Part shown: positions 7,514 through 59,768 of the stretch, piece after piece | Position numbering within the stretch: position 1 is the stretch's first letter | Layout: each line of letters opens with the position of its first letter | Assembly (NCBI RefSeq): GCF_008727775.1 | Contig: NZ_CP044232.1 | Coordinates: 3,286,001 to 3,350,000, forward strand | DNA: 64,000 nt | Reading direction: 5' to 3' | From: Microbacterium lushaniae | GTDB taxonomy: Bacteria; Actinomycetota; Actinomycetes; Actinomycetales; Microbacteriaceae | Notes under the pieces: generated by a model | What the model saw: the letters and a program-made list of their open reading frames with translations, nothing else | The model's database searches: none | Told to the model about the DNA's origin: nothing | Made by a program: the position numbers and the translations under genes

Positions 7514-8278
7514 GTGCTGCAGGTCTGGGCCCTCGCGGGCATCGGGGAGGTGGCGCCCGGCACCGACCTCGTCGAGGTGATCGCCGACGCCGCGCGCGGT
7601 GAACTGGTCGACGGCGACATCGTCGTCGTGACCTCCAAGATCGTGTCGAAGGCCGAGGGCCGGTTCGTCGTGGCCGATGACCGCGAGGCGGCCATCACGG
7701 CCGAAACCGTGCGTGTGGTCGCCTCCCGCACGTCGCCGACCGGCCACGTCACCCGCATCGTCGAGAATCGCCTCGGCATGGTCTCCGCCGCCGCGGGCGT
7801 CGACGCCAGCAACACCCCGGAGGGCACCATCCTCCTCCTGCCCGAAGACCCGGATGCGTCGGCGCGGACGCTGGCGGCGGGCCTGCGGGAGCGGACCGGG
7901 GCACTCATCGGCGTGCTCGTCTCCGACACCCTGGGACGCGCGTGGCGCGAGGGCCAGACCGACGCCGCCATCGGCGCGGCGGGTGTGCAGGTGTTCGAAG
8001 ACCTGCGTGGCCACGTCGACGCCGAAGGGCGCCCCCTCGTGGTGACGATGCCGTGCGTGGCCGACGAGCTCGCCTCCGCCGCCGACCTCGTCAAGGGCAA
8101 GGCGGCCCGCCTTCCGGTCGCCGTGGTGCGCGGACGCGCCGACCTCGTCGGCTCGCTCGACCTGCCCGGCGCGCGGTCGATCGTCCGCCCCGCCGAGCGC
8201 GACATGTTCCGCCTCGGAGCCGACGAGGCCTACGCCGCCGGCCACGCCGACGGCGCCGCCTCCGCCCACCCCCGCTGA
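7514..8278 (+). CDS. cofE: Coenzyme F420-0:L-glutamate ligase
   Basis: A 254-residue CofE enzyme, which adds L-glutamates to F420-0 (GTP-dependent, cytoplasmic), the last step of F420 synthesis. Recognisable family segments are [15 protein letters not shown] (about residues 36-50), [17 protein letters not shown] (near 97) and [21 protein letters not shown] (near 135), which carry the metal- and GTP-binding residues. It is the stand-alone form: the C-terminal nitroreductase-like domain of mycobacterial FbiB is absent. The GTG start follows the acetyltransferase stop by one base. It lies about 45 kb from the other F420 genes of the window. Confidence 0.92.
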
Positions 8279-19579: not shown

Positions 19580-19654
19580 GTTCAGAATTCAGGAGACACG
19601 CCGCGGCGACGCCGCTCCGGGGCATCCGGCGGCCGATTCTTCCTGAGTTTTGAA
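19580..19654. repeat. Palindromic repeat family C, copy C1 (intergenic)
   Basis: A 75-base element with ends GTTCAGAATTCAGGA and TCCTGAGTTTTGAAC (inverted, 13 of 15 pairs) inside the prp operon, between prpD stop and prpB start. After the left end comes GACACGCCG, as in the two copies inside fbiC. Confidence 0.85.
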
Positions 19655-52778: not shown

Positions 52779-55406
52779 ATGACCACCGGCAGCGTCGTGC
52801 CGCAGGTGACACCCCGGGGCCTGCCCCATCCAGCCGTTCGCGATGTGCTCGCGCGAGCCGCGCAGGGAGCGGTGCTGGATGCGGACGACACCGAGGTGCT
52901 GCTGGCGGCGACCGACCACGATCTCGACGCGCTCCTGGATGCCGCGGCCGCGGTGCGCGACGCGGGTCTGATCCACGCCGGCCGTCCGGCGGTGCTGACG
53001 TACTCGCGCAAGGTGTTCGTGCCGCTGACGACGCTGTGCCGCGACCGCTGCCACTACTGCGTGTTCGTGGACACCCCCGGACAGCTCCTGAAGAAGCGCA
53101 AGCCGGCGTTCATGTCGCCCGAGCAGGTGCTCGCCGTCGTCCGACAGGGCCAGGCCCTGGGGTGCAAGGAGGCGCTTCTCACCCTCGGCGACCGCCCGGA
53201 GGACCGCTGGCCCGAAGCGCGCGCGTGGCTCGACGAGCACGGCTACGCCTCGACCCTGGAGTACGTCGGCGCCATCGCGCGCCTCATCACCGCCGAGACC
53301 GGCATGCTCGCGCACCTGAACCCCGGCGTCATGACCGCCGACGAACTGCGGATGCTCCGTCCCACGGCCCCCTCGATGGGCATGATGCTGGAGACCACCT
53401 CGGAGCGGCTGTTCCTCGAGCCCGGGCAGGTGCACTTCGGCTCCCCCGACAAGGACCCGGCGCTGCGGCTGCGGGTGATCGAGGACGCCGGGCGGTCGCG
53501 GATCCCGTTCACCACCGGCATCCTCGTCGGCATCGGCGAGACCCTGCGCGACCGGGCGGAGTCGCTCGTGGCCCTCCGCGACCTGCACGAGCGGTACGGA
53601 CACGTGCAGGAGGTGATCGTGCAGAACTTCCGCGCCAAGCCCCGCACCGCGATGCAGGGCGCACCCGACGCCGACCTGCGCGAATACGTCGCCGCCGTGG
53701 CCGCCACCCGGCTCGTGTTCGGGCCGCGCATGCGCATCCAGGTGCCGCCGAACCTGTCGGATCCGGCGGAGTTCGCCCTGCTCATCCGCGCGGGAGCGGA
53801 CGACTGGGGCGGCGTGTCGCCGCTGACCGCCGACCACGTCAACCCCGAGCGGCCGTGGCCCCACCTCGACGACCTGGCCCGCTTCACCGCCGACGCCGGC
53901 TTCACGCTGCGGGAACGGCTGACCGCCCACCCCGAGTACGTCCGCGCCGCCGACGCGTGGATCGACCCCGCGCTGCATCCGGCCGTGTCCGCCTTGGCCG
54001 ACGCCGACGGCCTGGCCGCCGATGTGCGCCCCTCGCCGCTTCCCTCCGTTCAAAACTCAGGAGACACGCCGAACGGAGGCGCCGCGACGACCCCGGATGC
54101 CCCGGATCTCCTGAGTTCTGCGCACCCCACCGCCCCCGCCGCATCCGCCGCATCCGGCGCATCCGGCGCATCCGGCGCCGAGGCCGGTTCACCCGCCGCA
54201 TCCGGCGCATCCGCCGCCGTTCAGAATTCAGGAGACACGCCGAGTCGGCTGGCCGCCACAGCCCCGGATGCCCCGGATCTCCTGAGTTCTGCGCACCCGA
54301 GCGCCGGCCGCCGCCTGGCGGAGCGGGCGGCGGCGGATCCGCTCGCCCTCGACGACGCCGAGTGGGAGTCGCTGCTGCGCGCCACCGGATCCGACCTCGA
54401 CGCGCTCGCCGCGACGGCCGACGACGTGCGCCGGTACACCGTGGGCGAAGCCGTGACGCTCGTGGTCAACCGCAACCTCACCTCGACCGGCTTCCGTGCC
54501 GCGGGCCGGGGCGGGGCGGGCACGTTCGGCCTGGATGACGTGGCCGAGATCGCCACGGACGCCGCCGAGCTGGGCGCGACCGAGCTGTGCGTGCAGGGGC
54601 GGCTGCCCGACGAAGAGGACCCGCAGGCGTACCTCGAGATCGTGCGCGCGGCCAAGGACGCCGCCGGCGACCTGCACGTGCACGCCTACCGCCCGCAGGA
54701 CGTGTGGGATCTCGCCGAGCGCGGCGGTCTCGGACTCGAGGGGGCCCTGCACGCACTCCGCGCCGCCGGCGTCGACACCGTCCCCGGCACCGGGGTCAAG
54801 GTGCTCAGCGAACGCGTCCGCGCCCTCGTGGCCCCGGGCGACCTCGACATCGACCGGTGGACGGAGGGGATCACCGCCGCCCACCGCGCGGGGTTCGGCT
54901 CCACGTCGGTGCTGTTCTACGGTCACGTCGAGACGGCGGCCGAGCGGGTCGCCCACCTGCGGATGCTGCGGCGGATCCAGGACGCGTCGACGGGCTCAGC
55001 GACCCGATCGACCCACACGGGCGGGTTCACGGAGTTCGTCCCGATCCCCCTGCCCGGCCACGGCACGCCCCTCGTCCCCGGACGCGCACCGATCGACGAG
55101 CACCGCGCCATGGTCGCGGTGTCGCGCCTGCTGCTGTCCGGCAGCATCCCGCACATCCAGATCCCGTGGACCCGCGTCGGCCGCGAGGCGGCCGCGGTGC
55201 TGCTGGGCTCCGGCGGCGACGACCTCGGCGGCACGCTGCTGGACGGCCGCGTGCTCCCCGACACCGGCATCGAGCAGGGCCTGGAACTGCCGGCGACGGA
55301 TGCGGCGCGCATCGCTGCGCGGCTGTTCCGGCCGTTCCGCCGGCGCACCACCGACTACCGCACCCCTCGGCCGGCCCCCGTCGAGCCTCAGGAGGGCGGG
55401 CGATGA
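52779..55406 (+). CDS. fbiC: FO synthase FbiC (CofG-CofH fusion) with radical-SAM cluster missing in the CofH half
   Basis: An 875-residue two-domain protein of the F420 deazaflavin (FO) pathway. CofG half: residues about 1-415, intact cluster motif Cys87-x3-Cys91-x2-Cys94 (LCRDRCHYC) in YSRKVFVPLTTLCRD context. Linker: about 418-510, encoded by two palindromic repeats and Ala/Ser/Gly repeats. CofH half: 510-875, still with CofH landmarks (LHVHAYRP, DTVPGTGVK, YGHVET, GGFTEFVP, DDLGGTL). Where other FbiC proteins have an INFTNxCxxxCxxCAF-type motif after VVNRN, this has LTSTGFRAAGRGGAGTFGL (567-585) and no cysteine; only Cys604 remains in the half. That half cannot hold the usual cluster (inference). 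First gene of the operon. Confidence 0.88.
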   Translation: MTTGSVVPQVTPRGLPHPAVRDVLARAAQGAVLDADDTEVLLAATDHDLDALLDAAAAVRDAGLIHAGRPAVLTYSRKVFVPLTTLCRDRCHYCVFVDTPGQLLKKRKPAFMSPEQVLAVVRQGQALGCKEALLTLGDRPEDRWPEARAWLDEHGYASTLEYVGAIARLITAETGMLAHLNPGVMTADELRMLRPTAPSMGMMLETTSERLFLEPGQVHFGSPDKDPALRLRVIEDAGRSRIPFTTGILVGIGETLRDRAESLVALRDLHERYGHVQEVIVQNFRAKPRTAMQGAPDADLREYVAAVAATRLVFGPRMRIQVPPNLSDPAEFALLIRAGADDWGGVSPLTADHVNPERPWPHLDDLARFTADAGFTLRERLTAHPEYVRAADAWIDPALHPAVSALADADGLAADVRPSPLPSVQNSGDTPNGGAATTPDAPDLLSSAHPTAPAASAASGASGASGAEAGSPAASGASAAVQNSGDTPSRLAATAPDAPDLLSSAHPSAGRRLAERAAADPLALDDAEWESLLRATGSDLDALAATADDVRRYTVGEAVTLVVNRNLTSTGFRAAGRGGAGTFGLDDVAEIATDAAELGATELCVQGRLPDEEDPQAYLEIVRAAKDAAGDLHVHAYRPQDVWDLAERGGLGLEGALHALRAAGVDTVPGTGVKVLSERVRALVAPGDLDIDRWTEGITAAHRAGFGSTSVLFYGHVETAAERVAHLRMLRRIQDASTGSATRSTHTGGFTEFVPIPLPGHGTPLVPGRAPIDEHRAMVAVSRLLLSGSIPHIQIPWTRVGREAAAVLLGSGGDDLGGTLLDGRVLPDTGIEQGLELPATDAARIAARLFRPFRRRTTDYRTPRPAPVEPQEGGR
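54048..54122. repeat. Palindromic repeat family C, copy C2, inside fbiC
   Basis: Ends GTTCAAAACTCAGGAGACAC and TCTCCTGAGTTCTGCGC; the middle encodes NGGAATTPDAPD. It is inserted in frame (residues about 424-448) in the linker between the CofG and CofH halves. Confidence 0.9.
54138..54180. repeat. GCATCCGGC tandem repeat in fbiC
   Basis: Nine-base units (GCATCCGGC) in tandem, encoding ASG repeats between the two family C copies. Confidence 0.75.
54219..54293. repeat. Palindromic repeat family C, copy C3, inside fbiC
   Basis: Ends GTTCAGAATTCAGGAGACAC and TCTCCTGAGTTCTGCGC, nearly the same as C2, in the same reading frame (residues about 481-505, VQNSGDTPSRLAA...). The two are 171 bases apart, a multiple of three. 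Confidence 0.9.
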
Positions 55407-56896
55407 CGACGCGCACGGCGGTCGCGATCGTCGGCGCCGGATTCGCCGGGCTCGGGATGGCGATGGCACTGCGCCGCGCGGGACGCGACGACTTCGTCGT
55501 GCTCGAGCGGGGAGCATCCGTCGGCGGCACGTGGCGCGACAACACCTACCCCGGCGTCGCGTGCGACGTGCCCTCGCACCTGTACGGCTTCGCCGCCCAC
55601 CCCAACCCGCACTGGTCGGCGACGTTCGCGCCCGGCCCGGAGATCCACCGCTACCTCTCCCGCATCGCCGAGACCGAGGGGCTCGGCGACCGCATGCGGC
55701 TGCGCACCCCCATGCTCGGAGCCGACTGGGATGCCGACGCCGCGGTGTGGCGCATCCGCACCGGCGGTGAGCCGATCATCGCCGACACCCTCGTGCTCGC
55801 GTGCGGGCGTCTCACCGAGCCCGACGTCCCCGCGATCCCGGGGCTGGAGACCTTCCCCGGGCCGATCTTCCACTCCGCGCGGTGGGACCACGACGTCGAG
55901 CTCGCCGGCCGCAGGGTCGCCGTGGTGGGTACCGGCGCCAGCGCCGTGCAGCTCGTGCCGCAACTGGCGCGGGTCGCCGGTGCGCTCACGCTGTTCCAGC
56001 GGACGCCGGCGTGGATCGTGCCCCGTGGGGAGTCGACGTACACCGAGGACGAGCAGCGCCGCTTCTCCGAGCACCCCGGCGAGCTGGCCCGCCTCCGAGC
56101 CGCACTGTACGCCGAGGGGGAGGCACGATTCGCCTCGCGCTCGGGCGACGCCGAAGCCGCCGCCGCGGCGCGGGAGATCGCGCTGGCCCACCTGGCATCG
56201 CAGGTCGCCGACCCGGCGCTGCGCGCCGCGCTCACGCCCGGCTACGCCTTCGGGTGCAAGCGCGTGCTGCTCTCGGACGACTTCTACCCCGCCGTGGCGT
56301 CGGGTGCGGTGACCCTGGAGCCTTCGGCGCTGGCCGCCGTGGCGGGCTCGACGCTCGTCTCGGCGAACGGAACGCGCGTGGAGTCCGACGTGCTGGTGCT
56401 GGCGACCGGGTTCACCGCGTCGCAGCAGCCCTACGCCGACCTCGTGCGCGGCGAGGACGACCGCACGCTCGCCGAGCACTGGTCGGGCGGCATGACATCG
56501 TTCGGCTCGACGGTCGTGTCGGGGTTTCCGAACATGTTCGTGCTGAACGGCCCCAACGCGAGCCTCGGTCACAACTCCTCGGTGCTCATGGTGGAGGAGC
56601 AGGCCGCGTACGCCGTGCGCGCCCTGGCCCTGCGCGATCGCCGGCCCGGCGCCGTCCTGCGCACGCGCCCGGAGGCCGAGGAGGCCTACACCCGCGAGAT
56701 CGTCGAGGCCGCCGCATCCACGCCGTGGATCACCGGCGGATGCCGCAACTGGTACGTCGACGCCCGCTCGGGGCGTCTCACCCTGCTGTGGCCGGGTACC
56801 GTGCAGGCGTTCCGCGAGCGGCTCGCCGCGGCCGACGGGTCAGAGTTCGAGTGGGAGCACGCCCCCGTGCGCGGGGGGATGGGAGAAGAGTCATGA
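55403..56896 (+). CDS. FAD-dependent monooxygenase (Baeyer-Villiger type)
   Basis: A 497-residue flavoprotein. Two Rossmann motifs: GAGFAGLG (near residue 10) and GTGASAVQL (near 177), and the BVMO fingerprint FPGPIFHSARWD (FxGxxxHxxxW, near 152). It inserts oxygen next to a carbonyl using NADPH and O2; the substrate is unknown. ATG overlaps the fbiC stop and its stop overlaps the next start, so it is translated with the F420 genes, suggesting a link between F420 and this oxygenase (inference). Confidence 0.88.
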   Translation: MTTRTAVAIVGAGFAGLGMAMALRRAGRDDFVVLERGASVGGTWRDNTYPGVACDVPSHLYGFAAHPNPHWSATFAPGPEIHRYLSRIAETEGLGDRMRLRTPMLGADWDADAAVWRIRTGGEPIIADTLVLACGRLTEPDVPAIPGLETFPGPIFHSARWDHDVELAGRRVAVVGTGASAVQLVPQLARVAGALTLFQRTPAWIVPRGESTYTEDEQRRFSEHPGELARLRAALYAEGEARFASRSGDAEAAAAAREIALAHLASQVADPALRAALTPGYAFGCKRVLLSDDFYPAVASGAVTLEPSALAAVAGSTLVSANGTRVESDVLVLATGFTASQQPYADLVRGEDDRTLAEHWSGGMTSFGSTVVSGFPNMFVLNGPNASLGHNSSVLMVEEQAAYAVRALALRDRRPGAVLRTRPEAEEAYTREIVEAAASTPWITGGCRNWYVDARSGRLTLLWPGTVQAFRERLAAADGSEFEWEHAPVRGGMGEES

Positions 56897-57909
56897 CGGT
56901 ACCGCTGCGATTCGGGTACAAGGCCTCGAGCGAGCAGTTCGGGCCGGCCGAACTGCTGGAGTTCGGTGTGCTGGCGGAGGAGATGGGGTTCGACTCGGTC
57001 TTCCTCTCCGACCACTTCCAGCCCTGGATGCACGACGGCGGGCACGCCCCGGCCGCGCTGCCGTGGCTCGGGGCGCTCGGTCAGCGCACGTCGCGGATCG
57101 TCATGGGCACCTCGGTGCTCACGCCCACCTTCCGCTATCACCCCGGCGTCATCGCGCAGGCGTTCGCGACGCTGGGCGTGATGTATCCCGGCCGCGTCAT
57201 CCTGGGCGTGGGGACGGGGGAGGCGCTCAACGAGGTGACGCTGGGGCTGGAATGGCCCGAGCCGCCGGAGCGCTTCCAGCGCCTCAAGGAGGCGATCACG
57301 CTCATCGAGAAGCTGTGGGACGGCGAACGCGTCACCTTCGAGGGGACGTACTACTCGGTGAAGGATGCCACGATCTACGACAGGCCCGCGGCCGAGGAGA
57401 AGGTGCCGATCTACATCGGCGCCTCCGGTCCGGCCGCAACCCGCCTGGCCGGTCGCATCGCCGGCGGGTACATCACCACCAGCGGCAAGGCGCCCGAGCT
57501 GTACACCGACACCCTGCTGCCGGCGCTGCACGAGGGCCTGCGCAAGGCCGGCCGCGCCGATGACGCGATCGACACGATGATCGAGGTGAAGGTCTCGTAC
57601 CACCCCGACGCCGACACGGCGCTGAACAAGTGCCGCTTCTGGGCACCGCTCGCGCTCTCGGCCGATGAGAAGATGGGCGTGCACGACCCCATCGAGATGC
57701 AGCGCCTGGCAGACGCGCTGCCCATCGAGCGCGCCGCATCCCGCTTCATCGTCTCCACCGATCCCGACGAGCACGTCGAGCGGATCGCCCGGTACATCGA
57801 GCTCGGATTCCGCCACCTCGTCTTCCACGACCCGGGTGAGGACCAGGCGGAGTTCCTGCGCATGTACGGGGCGGAGATCCTGCCGCGCCTGCGCTCCCGC
57901 TTCAGCTGA
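56893..57909 (+). CDS. fgd: F420-dependent glucose-6-phosphate dehydrogenase family protein
   Basis: A 338-residue luciferase-like protein closely similar in its motifs to mycobacterial FGD1: FGYKASSEQF, Glu14, SDHFQPWMHDGGHAP with His41 and Trp45, MGTSVLTPTFRYHP, GVGTGEALNE with Glu110, GKAPELYT and the C-terminal HLVFHDPGED. The residues that matter for hydride transfer and acid-base chemistry in FGD1 (Glu13, His40, Trp44, Glu109) are all kept with an offset of one. It would reduce F420 with glucose-6-phosphate. The substrate is inferred. Coupled to the BVMO by ATGA. Confidence 0.88.
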   Translation: MTVPLRFGYKASSEQFGPAELLEFGVLAEEMGFDSVFLSDHFQPWMHDGGHAPAALPWLGALGQRTSRIVMGTSVLTPTFRYHPGVIAQAFATLGVMYPGRVILGVGTGEALNEVTLGLEWPEPPERFQRLKEAITLIEKLWDGERVTFEGTYYSVKDATIYDRPAAEEKVPIYIGASGPAATRLAGRIAGGYITTSGKAPELYTDTLLPALHEGLRKAGRADDAIDTMIEVKVSYHPDADTALNKCRFWAPLALSADEKMGVHDPIEMQRLADALPIERAASRFIVSTDPDEHVERIARYIELGFRHLVFHDPGEDQAEFLRMYGAEILPRLRSRFS

Positions 57910-57971: not shown

Positions 57972-58652
57972 ATGACCCCGAACCCGCCGCTGGAACCGGT
58001 TACGAGCGCGAATGAGCCGGAGTACGGCGCGGACGGGTGGGTCGTGATCGTCCCGGTCAAGCCCGCGACGGTCGGAAAGACGCGGCTCGCCGATGCGGCG
58101 GTCGACCGCGCTGCCCTCGCTCGCGCGATCGCGCTCGACACCATCGCCGCGGCGGCAGGCGCGACCCGCGTCGCGCGCGTCGTCGTCGTGACAGACGATC
58201 AGGAGCTGATCCGGGCGGCGACGGGGACGCCGCGGGTGGAGATCGTACGCGAGGTGGATGCGGCGGGCCTGGACGCCGCGATCGCCCTCGGCGCGCAGGC
58301 GGCGGGCCAGGGCGCACCCCGCGCCGCTCTCCTCGGCGACCTGCCGGCGCTGCGCTCCGTCGACCTCGACGCGGCGCTGGGCGCCGCCGGGTCGGTGGAG
58401 CGCGGGCTCGTTCCCGATGCCGAGGGCACCGGGTCGACGCTCGTCACCGCCCGCCCGGGAGCGGTGTGGACGACGGCGTTCGGCGAGGACTCCGCCGCCC
58501 GCCACCGGCTGCTCGGATGCACCGACCTCGACGTGCCGGAGGACTCGACCCTGCGCCGCGACGTGGACACTCCCGCACAGCTGGCGGCCGCGGAGGCCCT
58601 GGGGCTCGGACCCCGCACCGCCGCCCTGCTGAGCGCCGCACCGGTCGCGTAG
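57972..58652 (+). CDS. cofC: 2-phospho-L-lactate / PEP guanylyltransferase
   Basis: A 226-residue CofC/FbiD-family nucleotidyltransferase that activates 2-phospholactate or phosphoenolpyruvate with GTP before transfer to FO. Family segments: WVVIVPVKPATVGKTRL (residues 23-39), VTDDQELI (near 75), AALLGDLPAL (near 118), DAEGTGSTLVTARP (near 146). The first 20 residues are an extension. It starts 62 bases after fgd and faces cofD; the 3' ends are 45 bases apart. Confidence 0.9.
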   Translation: MTPNPPLEPVTSANEPEYGADGWVVIVPVKPATVGKTRLADAAVDRAALARAIALDTIAAAAGATRVARVVVVTDDQELIRAATGTPRVEIVREVDAAGLDAAIALGAQAAGQGAPRAALLGDLPALRSVDLDAALGAAGSVERGLVPDAEGTGSTLVTARPGAVWTTAFGEDSAARHRLLGCTDLDVPEDSTLRRDVDTPAQLAAAEALGLGPRTAALLSAAPVA

Positions 58653-58697: not shown

Positions 58698-59768
58698 TCA
58701 GGACGCGGCAGCGAGTGCGGCGTCGACGATCGCGGCCGAGGCGTCCACGTCGGTCATCCACAGCGGCGCCACCACCGACCGTATGCCCGCGGCATCCACG
58801 TCCGGCGCGGCAGCGGCGTCCTCCTCGGCGATCAGCCACGCGTCGAGCAGCCCGCCCGAGCTTCGCGCGCCGTAGTGCGCGGCGACGGCGGCCGCGGAGG
58901 TCTCGACGCCGATCGCCGTGAGGCACACGTCGGCCATGCCGCGAACGACCCGGCCGCCGATGATGGGCGAGACACCGACGACGGCGGATGCGGCCGCCAG
59001 CGCCTCGCGCATCCCCGGCACGGCCAGGATCGGCCCGATCGAGACGACCGGGTTCGACGGCGCCACGAGCACGACGTCGGCGGCGGCGATGGCCTCGACC
59101 ACTCCGGGGGCAGGGGACGCGGCCGCGATGCCGGGGTTGTCGAAGCGCACCGGCGTGAGTGCGGCGCGATGGCGCGTCCACCACTCCTGGAAGTGCAGGT
59201 CGCGCTCGGCGCCGTCGGCGTCCCGCACCGTGACGATCGTGTCGGCCTCGGCGTCGGTCATGGGCAGCAGGCGCGCGCCCAGGTTCCAGCGCCGCGACAT
59301 CCGCTCGAGCACCTGGGTGGGGGTGAGGCCGTCGCGCAGCCATCCGGTGCGTGCCAGGTGCGTGCCGAGATCGAGGTCGCCGAGCGTGAACCACGGCCAG
59401 CCCGCGCCCCACTCCTGCAGCTCGGCGTTGACCCGCTCGGTGTCGTCGGCCCTCCCCCAGCCGCGGTGGGTGTCGTTCACGCCCGCGAGGGCGTACGTGA
59501 TCGAGTCGACATCGGGCTGCAGCCGCACGCCCGAGAGCCACAGGTCGTCTCCGGTGTTGACCACGACGGTGGCCTCCGGCGCCCCTCGGCGACCCAGGGC
59601 CGCGCGCACGCCGAGCGTGAACTTCGCGCCGCCGACGCCGCCGGCCAGCACGACGACGCGCGGACCATCCTCCGCCGAAAGTGCATCACCCCGGCGAGAG
59701 TGCACGAAACTCGATGCACTCTCGCCGGGGTGATGCACACTCGCGGCCGCGCGGCCGGGATCGGTCAC
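58698..59768 (-). CDS. cofD: 2-phospho-L-lactate transferase (FO transferase)
   Basis: A 356-residue CofD/FbiA enzyme that transfers the phosphoenolpyruvyl or phospholactyl group to FO. The nucleotide-binding start [20 protein letters not shown] is at residues 37-56, followed by [16 protein letters not shown] (near 70) and [20 protein letters not shown] (near 233). The 36 residues before the core are encoded mainly by palindromic repeat B4; no in-frame start lies between the repeat and the core, so some of it must be translated. GTG at 59768 overlaps the hemL stop (GTGA). Last gene of the heme operon. Confidence 0.9.
59676..59744. repeat. Palindromic repeat family B, copy B4, inside the cofD 5' end
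   Basis: On the minus strand the arms GTGCATCACCCCGGCGAGAG and its complement pair perfectly over 24 bases around the loop TCGAGTTTCG. In the cofD mRNA this is a very stable hairpin right after the GTG. It codes for residues 10-31 (from [10 protein letters not shown] to GDALS). Confidence 0.9.

Follow-up and report, generated by a model that had tools for sequence, protein, structure and literature searches.

The DNA analysed here, which we refer to as the window, is a 64,000-nucleotide stretch of the Microbacterium lushaniae genome (contig NZ_CP044232.1, positions 3,286,001 to 3,350,000). It holds fbiC, a gene for a flavin monooxygenase (FMO) and further F420 genes, with the following features:

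52779..55406, + strand: fbiC, a CofG-CofH fusion of 875 aa, CofH half without the cluster motif
53037..53060, + strand: CxxxCxxC of the CofG half, CRDRCHYC, residues 87-94
54041..54320, + strand: linker between the FbiC halves, two direct repeat copies with inverted ends (AACTCAGGAGA / TCTCCTGAGTT)
54324..55406, + strand: cluster-free CofH-like half, an MqnE-like barrel
54477..54533, + strand: loop, residues 567-585, in place of canonical CofH NINFTNVCYTGCRFCAFAQ...; its length varies among relatives
55403..56896, + strand: FMO, a type I Baeyer-Villiger monooxygenase (BVMO)-type flavin monooxygenase of 497 aa; start overlaps the fbiC stop (ATGA)
56893..57909, + strand: fgd, F420-dependent glucose-6-phosphate dehydrogenase (TIGR03554, 462.7 bits, cut-off 420); start overlaps the FMO stop (ATGA)
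57972..58652, + strand: cofC/fbiD (TIGR03552, 112.2 bits, cut-off 105)
58698..59768, - strand: cofD/fbiA (TIGR01819, 312 bits, cut-off 257.45)
7514..8278, + strand: cofE, start approximate (match 7520-8212, 225.6 bits, cut-off 180.65)

The genes fbiC, FMO and fgd are joined by 4-bp overlaps and followed by cofC, an arrangement that fits joint expression. As a first-pass annotation of the window had it, cofC, cofD, cofE and fgd look intact, each matching its model above cut-off. The repeat in the FbiC linker resembles a small element, mobile or palindromic, that is read in frame; its AATTCAGGAGACA recurs at position 19586.

The two halves of FbiC differ sharply. With 468 bits, the CofG half is above the TIGR03550 cut-off of 213.35, and it carries the only CxxxCxxC of the protein, at residue 87, which places it with the CofG equivalogs. 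The CofH half scores 285.3 bits against TIGR03551 (254.2 in the genome search), below the equivalog cut-off of 374.1, and taken alone it reaches 27.6 bits with the Pfam model PF04055, under the cut-off of 29.5. It has the barrel fold of the radical SAM superfamily, and the CxxxCxxC that ligates [4Fe-4S] is absent: residues 562-566 read VVNRN, followed by LTSTGFRAAGRGGAG, and Cys604 is the sole cysteine of residues 510-875. That this half has Cys604 only, and that no CxxxCxxC is hidden in another frame, had been claimed before; the translation bears out the former, and a search of all six frames of 54301-55406 the latter.

The same annotation raised the possibility of a separate CofH acting in trans. 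The genome is a single contig of 3.65 Mb, 99.99% complete, and a search of the whole of it with the CofH model gives no second CofH; the three remaining matches, all below 20 bits, lie in the CofG half (two) and in another radical SAM protein (one). Nor does any of 59 genomes of the same genus contain a CofH above cut-off. The earlier interpretation is supported in part. Loss of the motif stands, and a CofH supplied in trans does not. Further radical SAM matches in the M. lushaniae genome, considered as substitutes for CofH and set aside, presumably represent MoaA, MiaB, HemW, RlmN, MJ0619-like and SplB/Rv2578c-like proteins. One radical SAM protein of 546 aa (L004, C1:1138454-1138936), distant from the F420 genes, is a putative MJ0619-like enzyme.

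Loss of the motif is shared. In all of the best 120 of 2227 homologues, the named ones being mostly Microbacterium, the CofH half is without CxxxCxxC, which rules out sequencing error as the cause, and the half is under purifying selection; both the alignment of relatives and the selection analysis had been suggested as checks. Some relatives have additional single cysteines in this half, and "one cysteine" holds for the M. lushaniae FbiC. Among the 59 same-genus genomes, 34 have a CofH half under cut-off (169-277 bits), as counted by score, with the motif itself read in those fetched as loci. Across 219 genomes of the family, CofH matches form two score groups: 13 genomes score 513-527 bits, and 38 score 47-332 bits, with fragments at the bottom of the latter range. 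Fetched loci of the high-scoring group read VVNRNINFTNVCYTGCRFC; those of the low-scoring group read VVNRN or similar, after which comes a loop that varies in length and has no cluster motif, and the CofG CxxxCxxC is seen in every fetched family locus that covers that part. At the level of the order (376 genomes), CofH above cut-off is found in 31 genomes and a lower match in 31, with 21 of the lower matches outside the family (three families and one partial match). We fetched 20 of these 21 loci; the CofH-like part is devoid of CxxxCxxC in every one, its gene is unfused to CofG in 17, and CofG is present in 18. Over the fetched loci, the motif occurs in CofG in 47/47 cases and in the cluster-free CofH-like part in 0/49.

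Cluster-free CofH halves, either fused to CofG or standalone, are in fact found in many Actinomycetota. A scan of named genomes gave 571 confirmed stretches, of which the best 80 comprise 54 without and 26 with the motif. Within these 80, the cluster-free form occurs in Actinoplanes, Kineococcus, Nocardia, Actinomycetospora, Gordonia, Williamsia, Pseudonocardia, Promicromonospora, Trebonia, Humibacter, Agreia, Cryobacterium, Arthrobacter and Quadrisphaera, and the canonical form in Geodermatophilus, Blastococcus, Klenkia, Frankia, Nocardioides and Rhodococcus koreensis. CxxxCxxC is likewise absent from the 120 homologues listed for a Kineococcus protein. When 50 genomes with the cluster-free form were searched whole, 45 had no CofH over cut-off, sub-threshold matches aside; the two types occur together in the other five, namely three Nocardia (L206, L212, L222) and two metagenome-assembled genomes (MAGs; L213, L240). 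Source databases name cluster-free proteins CofG, FO synthase, CofH-subfamily radical SAM or ThiH, despite the absent motif. Some MAG taxon labels may also be wrong: the CofG of one locus under an Acidobacteriaceae label (L216) falls among those of Microbacteriaceae.

The cluster-free form has a constant neighbor. In the neighborhood comparison, the FMO adjoins it in 29/29 family loci and is found in 0/12 canonical CofH loci (8-20 kb each) and 0/20 cofD loci without FbiC. The FMO also directly adjoins the CofH-like part in 20/20 fetched order-level loci; pooled, it lies downstream on the same strand, with a gap of 0-968 nt, in 49/49 cluster-free loci. In the named set (best 80 of 571 stretches), it is present at 54/54 cluster-free loci (gap 1-1423 nt, median 35) and, by the threshold used, at 0/26 motif-bearing loci, one of which (L277) has an unrelated match of 37%. 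The 49-locus and named sets share at least 10 contigs, and hence their loci are not all independent. Whole-genome searches place an FMO match beside the CofH-like half in 36/38 family genomes. Of the other two, G173 has another contig that begins with the FMO match, and G254 has a decayed FbiC (L063), with an internal stop in the CofG part, a remnant of CofH and no FMO match. In G212, CofG is a 452-aa frame beside cofD, and the CofH-like gene and FMO lie on a separate contig; its congeners (G069, G151, G261) have canonical CofH. Together with the 17 unfused order-level loci, G212 shows that the CofH-like/FMO pair can be separated from CofG. More distant FMO paralogues, at most 50% identical, occur elsewhere in some genomes, including three canonical ones.

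No third partner besides CofG is as constant as the FMO among neighborhood ORFs of at least 120 aa, a ranking that keeps all such ORFs, so that out-of-frame shadows rank high as well. In nine loci (L100, L101, L104, L105, L106, L109, L110, L112, L182), 540-968 nt separate the CofH-like gene from the FMO; the one ORF examined in that gap (L101:11603-12496) encodes an alpha/beta hydrolase (Abhydrolase_6), which was rejected as a constant partner, being limited to some lineages. We also considered a natural CofH-FMO fusion, P0252 (778 aa; one of 120 proteins listed). We take it to be a frameshift product, because it starts within the CofH-like part and its junction resembles a frame-shifted reading of the CofH C-terminus.

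Type I BVMOs, which turn a ketone or aldehyde into an ester with O2 and NADPH, are marked by a Rossmann motif and two fingerprints. The fingerprints are FxGxxxHxxxW[PD] and [AG]GxWxxxx[FY]P[GM]xxxD (PMC6058054). The window FMO carries both, as FPGPIFHSARWD and GGTWRDNTYPGVACD, along with the Rossmann motif, and its GCKRV aligns with GTKRL of phenylacetone monooxygenase (1w4x), which contains the active-site Arg337. The Rossmann motif and FxGxxxHxxxW are present in 49/49 linked FMOs, the second BVMO fingerprint in 48/49, and the active-site Arg motif GxKR in 48/49 (L097 being the exception); the strict final residue of the first fingerprint, W[PD], is seen in just 35/49.

Phylogeny indicates a single cluster-free lineage that has changed places with the canonical one. 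In a CofH tree of 91 rows, whose bootstrap is not fully settled, the cluster-free rows make up one side of a branch with 100/100 support, and a wider tree (90 rows, quick method) gives the same split with an SH-aLRT of 100. The CofG trees tell a different story. With 89 rows, CofH type needs three changes, and a single change suffices in 0% of 200 bootstrap trees; with 82 rows, there are five changes, four of them forced by starred branches. CofG of the Quadrisphaera-like group falls with a canonical CofG of its own family (L137), that of Kineococcus within another canonical group, and that of cluster-free-type Microbacteriaceae near canonical Microbacteriaceae CofG. Being unrooted, the trees show that exchange took place and not which way it went. 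The linked FMOs group together as a single clade, apart from 20 unlinked FMOs (100/99). Over 47 loci, CofH-like and FMO distances correlate with r 0.858 (partial 0.647 given CofG), and CofG and FMO distances with r 0.760 (partial 0.267). Within the CofH-like half, 52 columns are invariant across 43 rows, including H, R, E, D and Q residues, and Cys604 is invariant in the same alignment. The conserved QGGI adjoining Cys604 is lost, and altogether the cluster-free form has lost conservation at 114 of the 176 positions that are conserved in canonical CofH.

Other F420 genes accompany CofG throughout the family. Matches to cofD and cofE occur in all 50 family genomes with CofG over cut-off, although cofD is partial in G157 and G254, and cofE in G254. 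The converse, a strict one-to-one association of F420 genes with FbiC, fails: among the 95 family genomes in which cofD is matched, 45 lack a CofG over cut-off, which suggests that uptake of FO, or another source of it, is common in the family. In 19 of 20 fetched cofD loci without FbiC (e.g. L073-L092), cofC is found. Our literature search turned up no measurement of F420 in Microbacterium.

Based on these comparisons, we propose that the CofH-like half and the adjacent FMO act as one unit in F420 biosynthesis, in place of radical-SAM CofH, a reading to which we assign a probability of roughly 0.7. We are slightly more confident that radical-SAM CofH has repeatedly given way to such a pair next to a CofG that was itself inherited. 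Weighing against the proposal are the five of 50 genomes with both CofH types, the 13 of 54 named loci whose fetched stretch shows no CofG, the CofH remnant of G254 with no FMO match, and the linked FMOs that depart from W[PD] or, in L097, from GxKR. Exchange of the CofH types beside CofG argues that both do the same job, and on this basis we infer that the CofH-like half performs the CofH function, transfer of the tyrosine hydroxybenzyl group to the diaminouracil. The unit would then make the intermediate that CofG requires, 5-amino-6-ribitylaminouracil bearing a tyrosine-derived hydroxybenzyl group. In canonical CofH, according to a 2021 review (PMC8498797), a hydrogen is abstracted from the tyrosine amine, and the p-hydroxybenzyl radical that is released adds to the diaminouracil. 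The net reaction can be viewed as the passing of a hydroxybenzyl electrophile to a nucleophilic carbon. For the cluster-free pair, the best reading is that its step uses O2 and flavin. One tentative scheme is that the FMO (FAD/NADPH/O2) uses Baeyer-Villiger-type chemistry to oxidize a carbonyl compound derived from tyrosine, candidates being 4-hydroxyphenylpyruvate and 4-hydroxyphenylacetaldehyde, to a 4-hydroxybenzyl ester. Loss of the acyl group would produce p-quinone methide, and the remodelled barrel would hold the diaminouracil such that its C5 traps the quinone methide, making C-C bond formation polar rather than radical. We regard this particular chemistry as possible but doubtful; alternatively, the FMO may N-oxidize tyrosine.

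Several other explanations need to be weighed. The pair may yield a different product, such as a modified deazaflavin or another diaminouracil derivative, instead of the CofH adduct. This would suit the many lost positions of canonical CofH conservation and the 13 of 54 named loci (best 80 of 571 stretches) with no CofG inside the fetched stretch; and the five of 50 genomes with both CofH types imply that in these genomes the unit may do something else or something more. We nonetheless consider it improbable, as the cluster-free form is the sole CofH-like candidate in the other 45 genomes, sub-threshold matches aside, CofG, cofD and cofE are retained in the family, and fgd overlaps the FMO gene in the window. 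Less probable again is that just one partner is catalytic, with the FMO both making and coupling the hydroxybenzyl group while the barrel binds or scaffolds, or with the FMO just serving the barrel. The missing cluster loop and remodelled active site would allow for this, but 52 invariant columns with H, R, E, D and Q among them, together with purifying selection on the half, speak for a barrel that does more.

It is very improbable that the CofH half is vestigial and that cells import FO made by others. The abundance of family genomes with cofD and no CofG over cut-off (45/95) speaks for it, yet here the CofG motif is retained in 47/47 cases, the half is under purifying selection, and the FMO partner is constant. 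We give least credence to the idea that unusual ligands still hold a cluster in this half, which would leave it a radical SAM enzyme. Although the radical SAM fold is retained and Cys604 is invariant in the 43-row alignment, the M. lushaniae half has that single cysteine, the loop varies in both length and sequence, the QGGI next to Cys604 is gone, and the FMO partner would be left unexplained.

Replacement of radical-SAM CofH by the CofH-like/FMO unit would bear on how FO synthesis is viewed in general. The same review holds that FO synthesis follows a universal mechanism, involving two radical SAM domains, in all F420 producers studied (PMC8498797), and among the titles and abstract openings listed, a body of text that takes in few subscription papers, none links a monooxygenase to FO formation or describes a cluster-free CofH. 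The first C-C bond of FO is so far known solely as radical SAM chemistry. With somewhat less assurance than for the replacement itself, we favor a second, O2- and flavin-dependent route to FO, in which a cluster-free barrel of radical SAM descent and its own BVMO-type enzyme form this bond, with several swaps between this pair and radical-SAM CofH within Actinomycetota. Many actinobacteria seem, from their genomes, to make the deazaflavin head of F420 with a cluster-free CofH relative and a flavin monooxygenase. If this is true, the F420 pathway has a second chemistry, the radical SAM fold has found a new use that dispenses with the cluster, and current annotation (CofG, CofH-subfamily, FO synthase) hides the second route. 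Foreign hosts could then also be given a cluster-free enzyme for the first half of FO synthesis. Whether Microbacterium, Gordonia, Kineococcus and Actinomycetospora produce F420 becomes directly testable, and the Nocardia and MAG genomes with both CofH types will be useful for separating redundancy from another function.

Finally, the proposed unit can be compared with known systems. Like the radical SAM FO synthase (FbiC/CofG-CofH), it has a CofG over cut-off with CxxxCxxC, the same domain order and an F420 gene context; unlike it, the M. lushaniae-type CofH half is under cut-off, motif-free and linked to an FMO, and has lost 114/176 conserved positions. The closest solved relative of this half is MqnE (6xi9/6xig; 22-24% identity) of the futalosine pathway, which, in contrast to the cluster-free half, is an active radical SAM enzyme. 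The FMO shares its fold with the type I BVMOs TmCHMO (7v8o), phenylacetone monooxygenase (1w4x) and steroid monooxygenase (4aos), with TM scores of 0.81-0.87 by query length among the matches listed. It differs from them in being just 25-30% identical, in a final fingerprint residue that is often neither P nor D, and in belonging to a clade of its own, tied to the cluster-free CofH.
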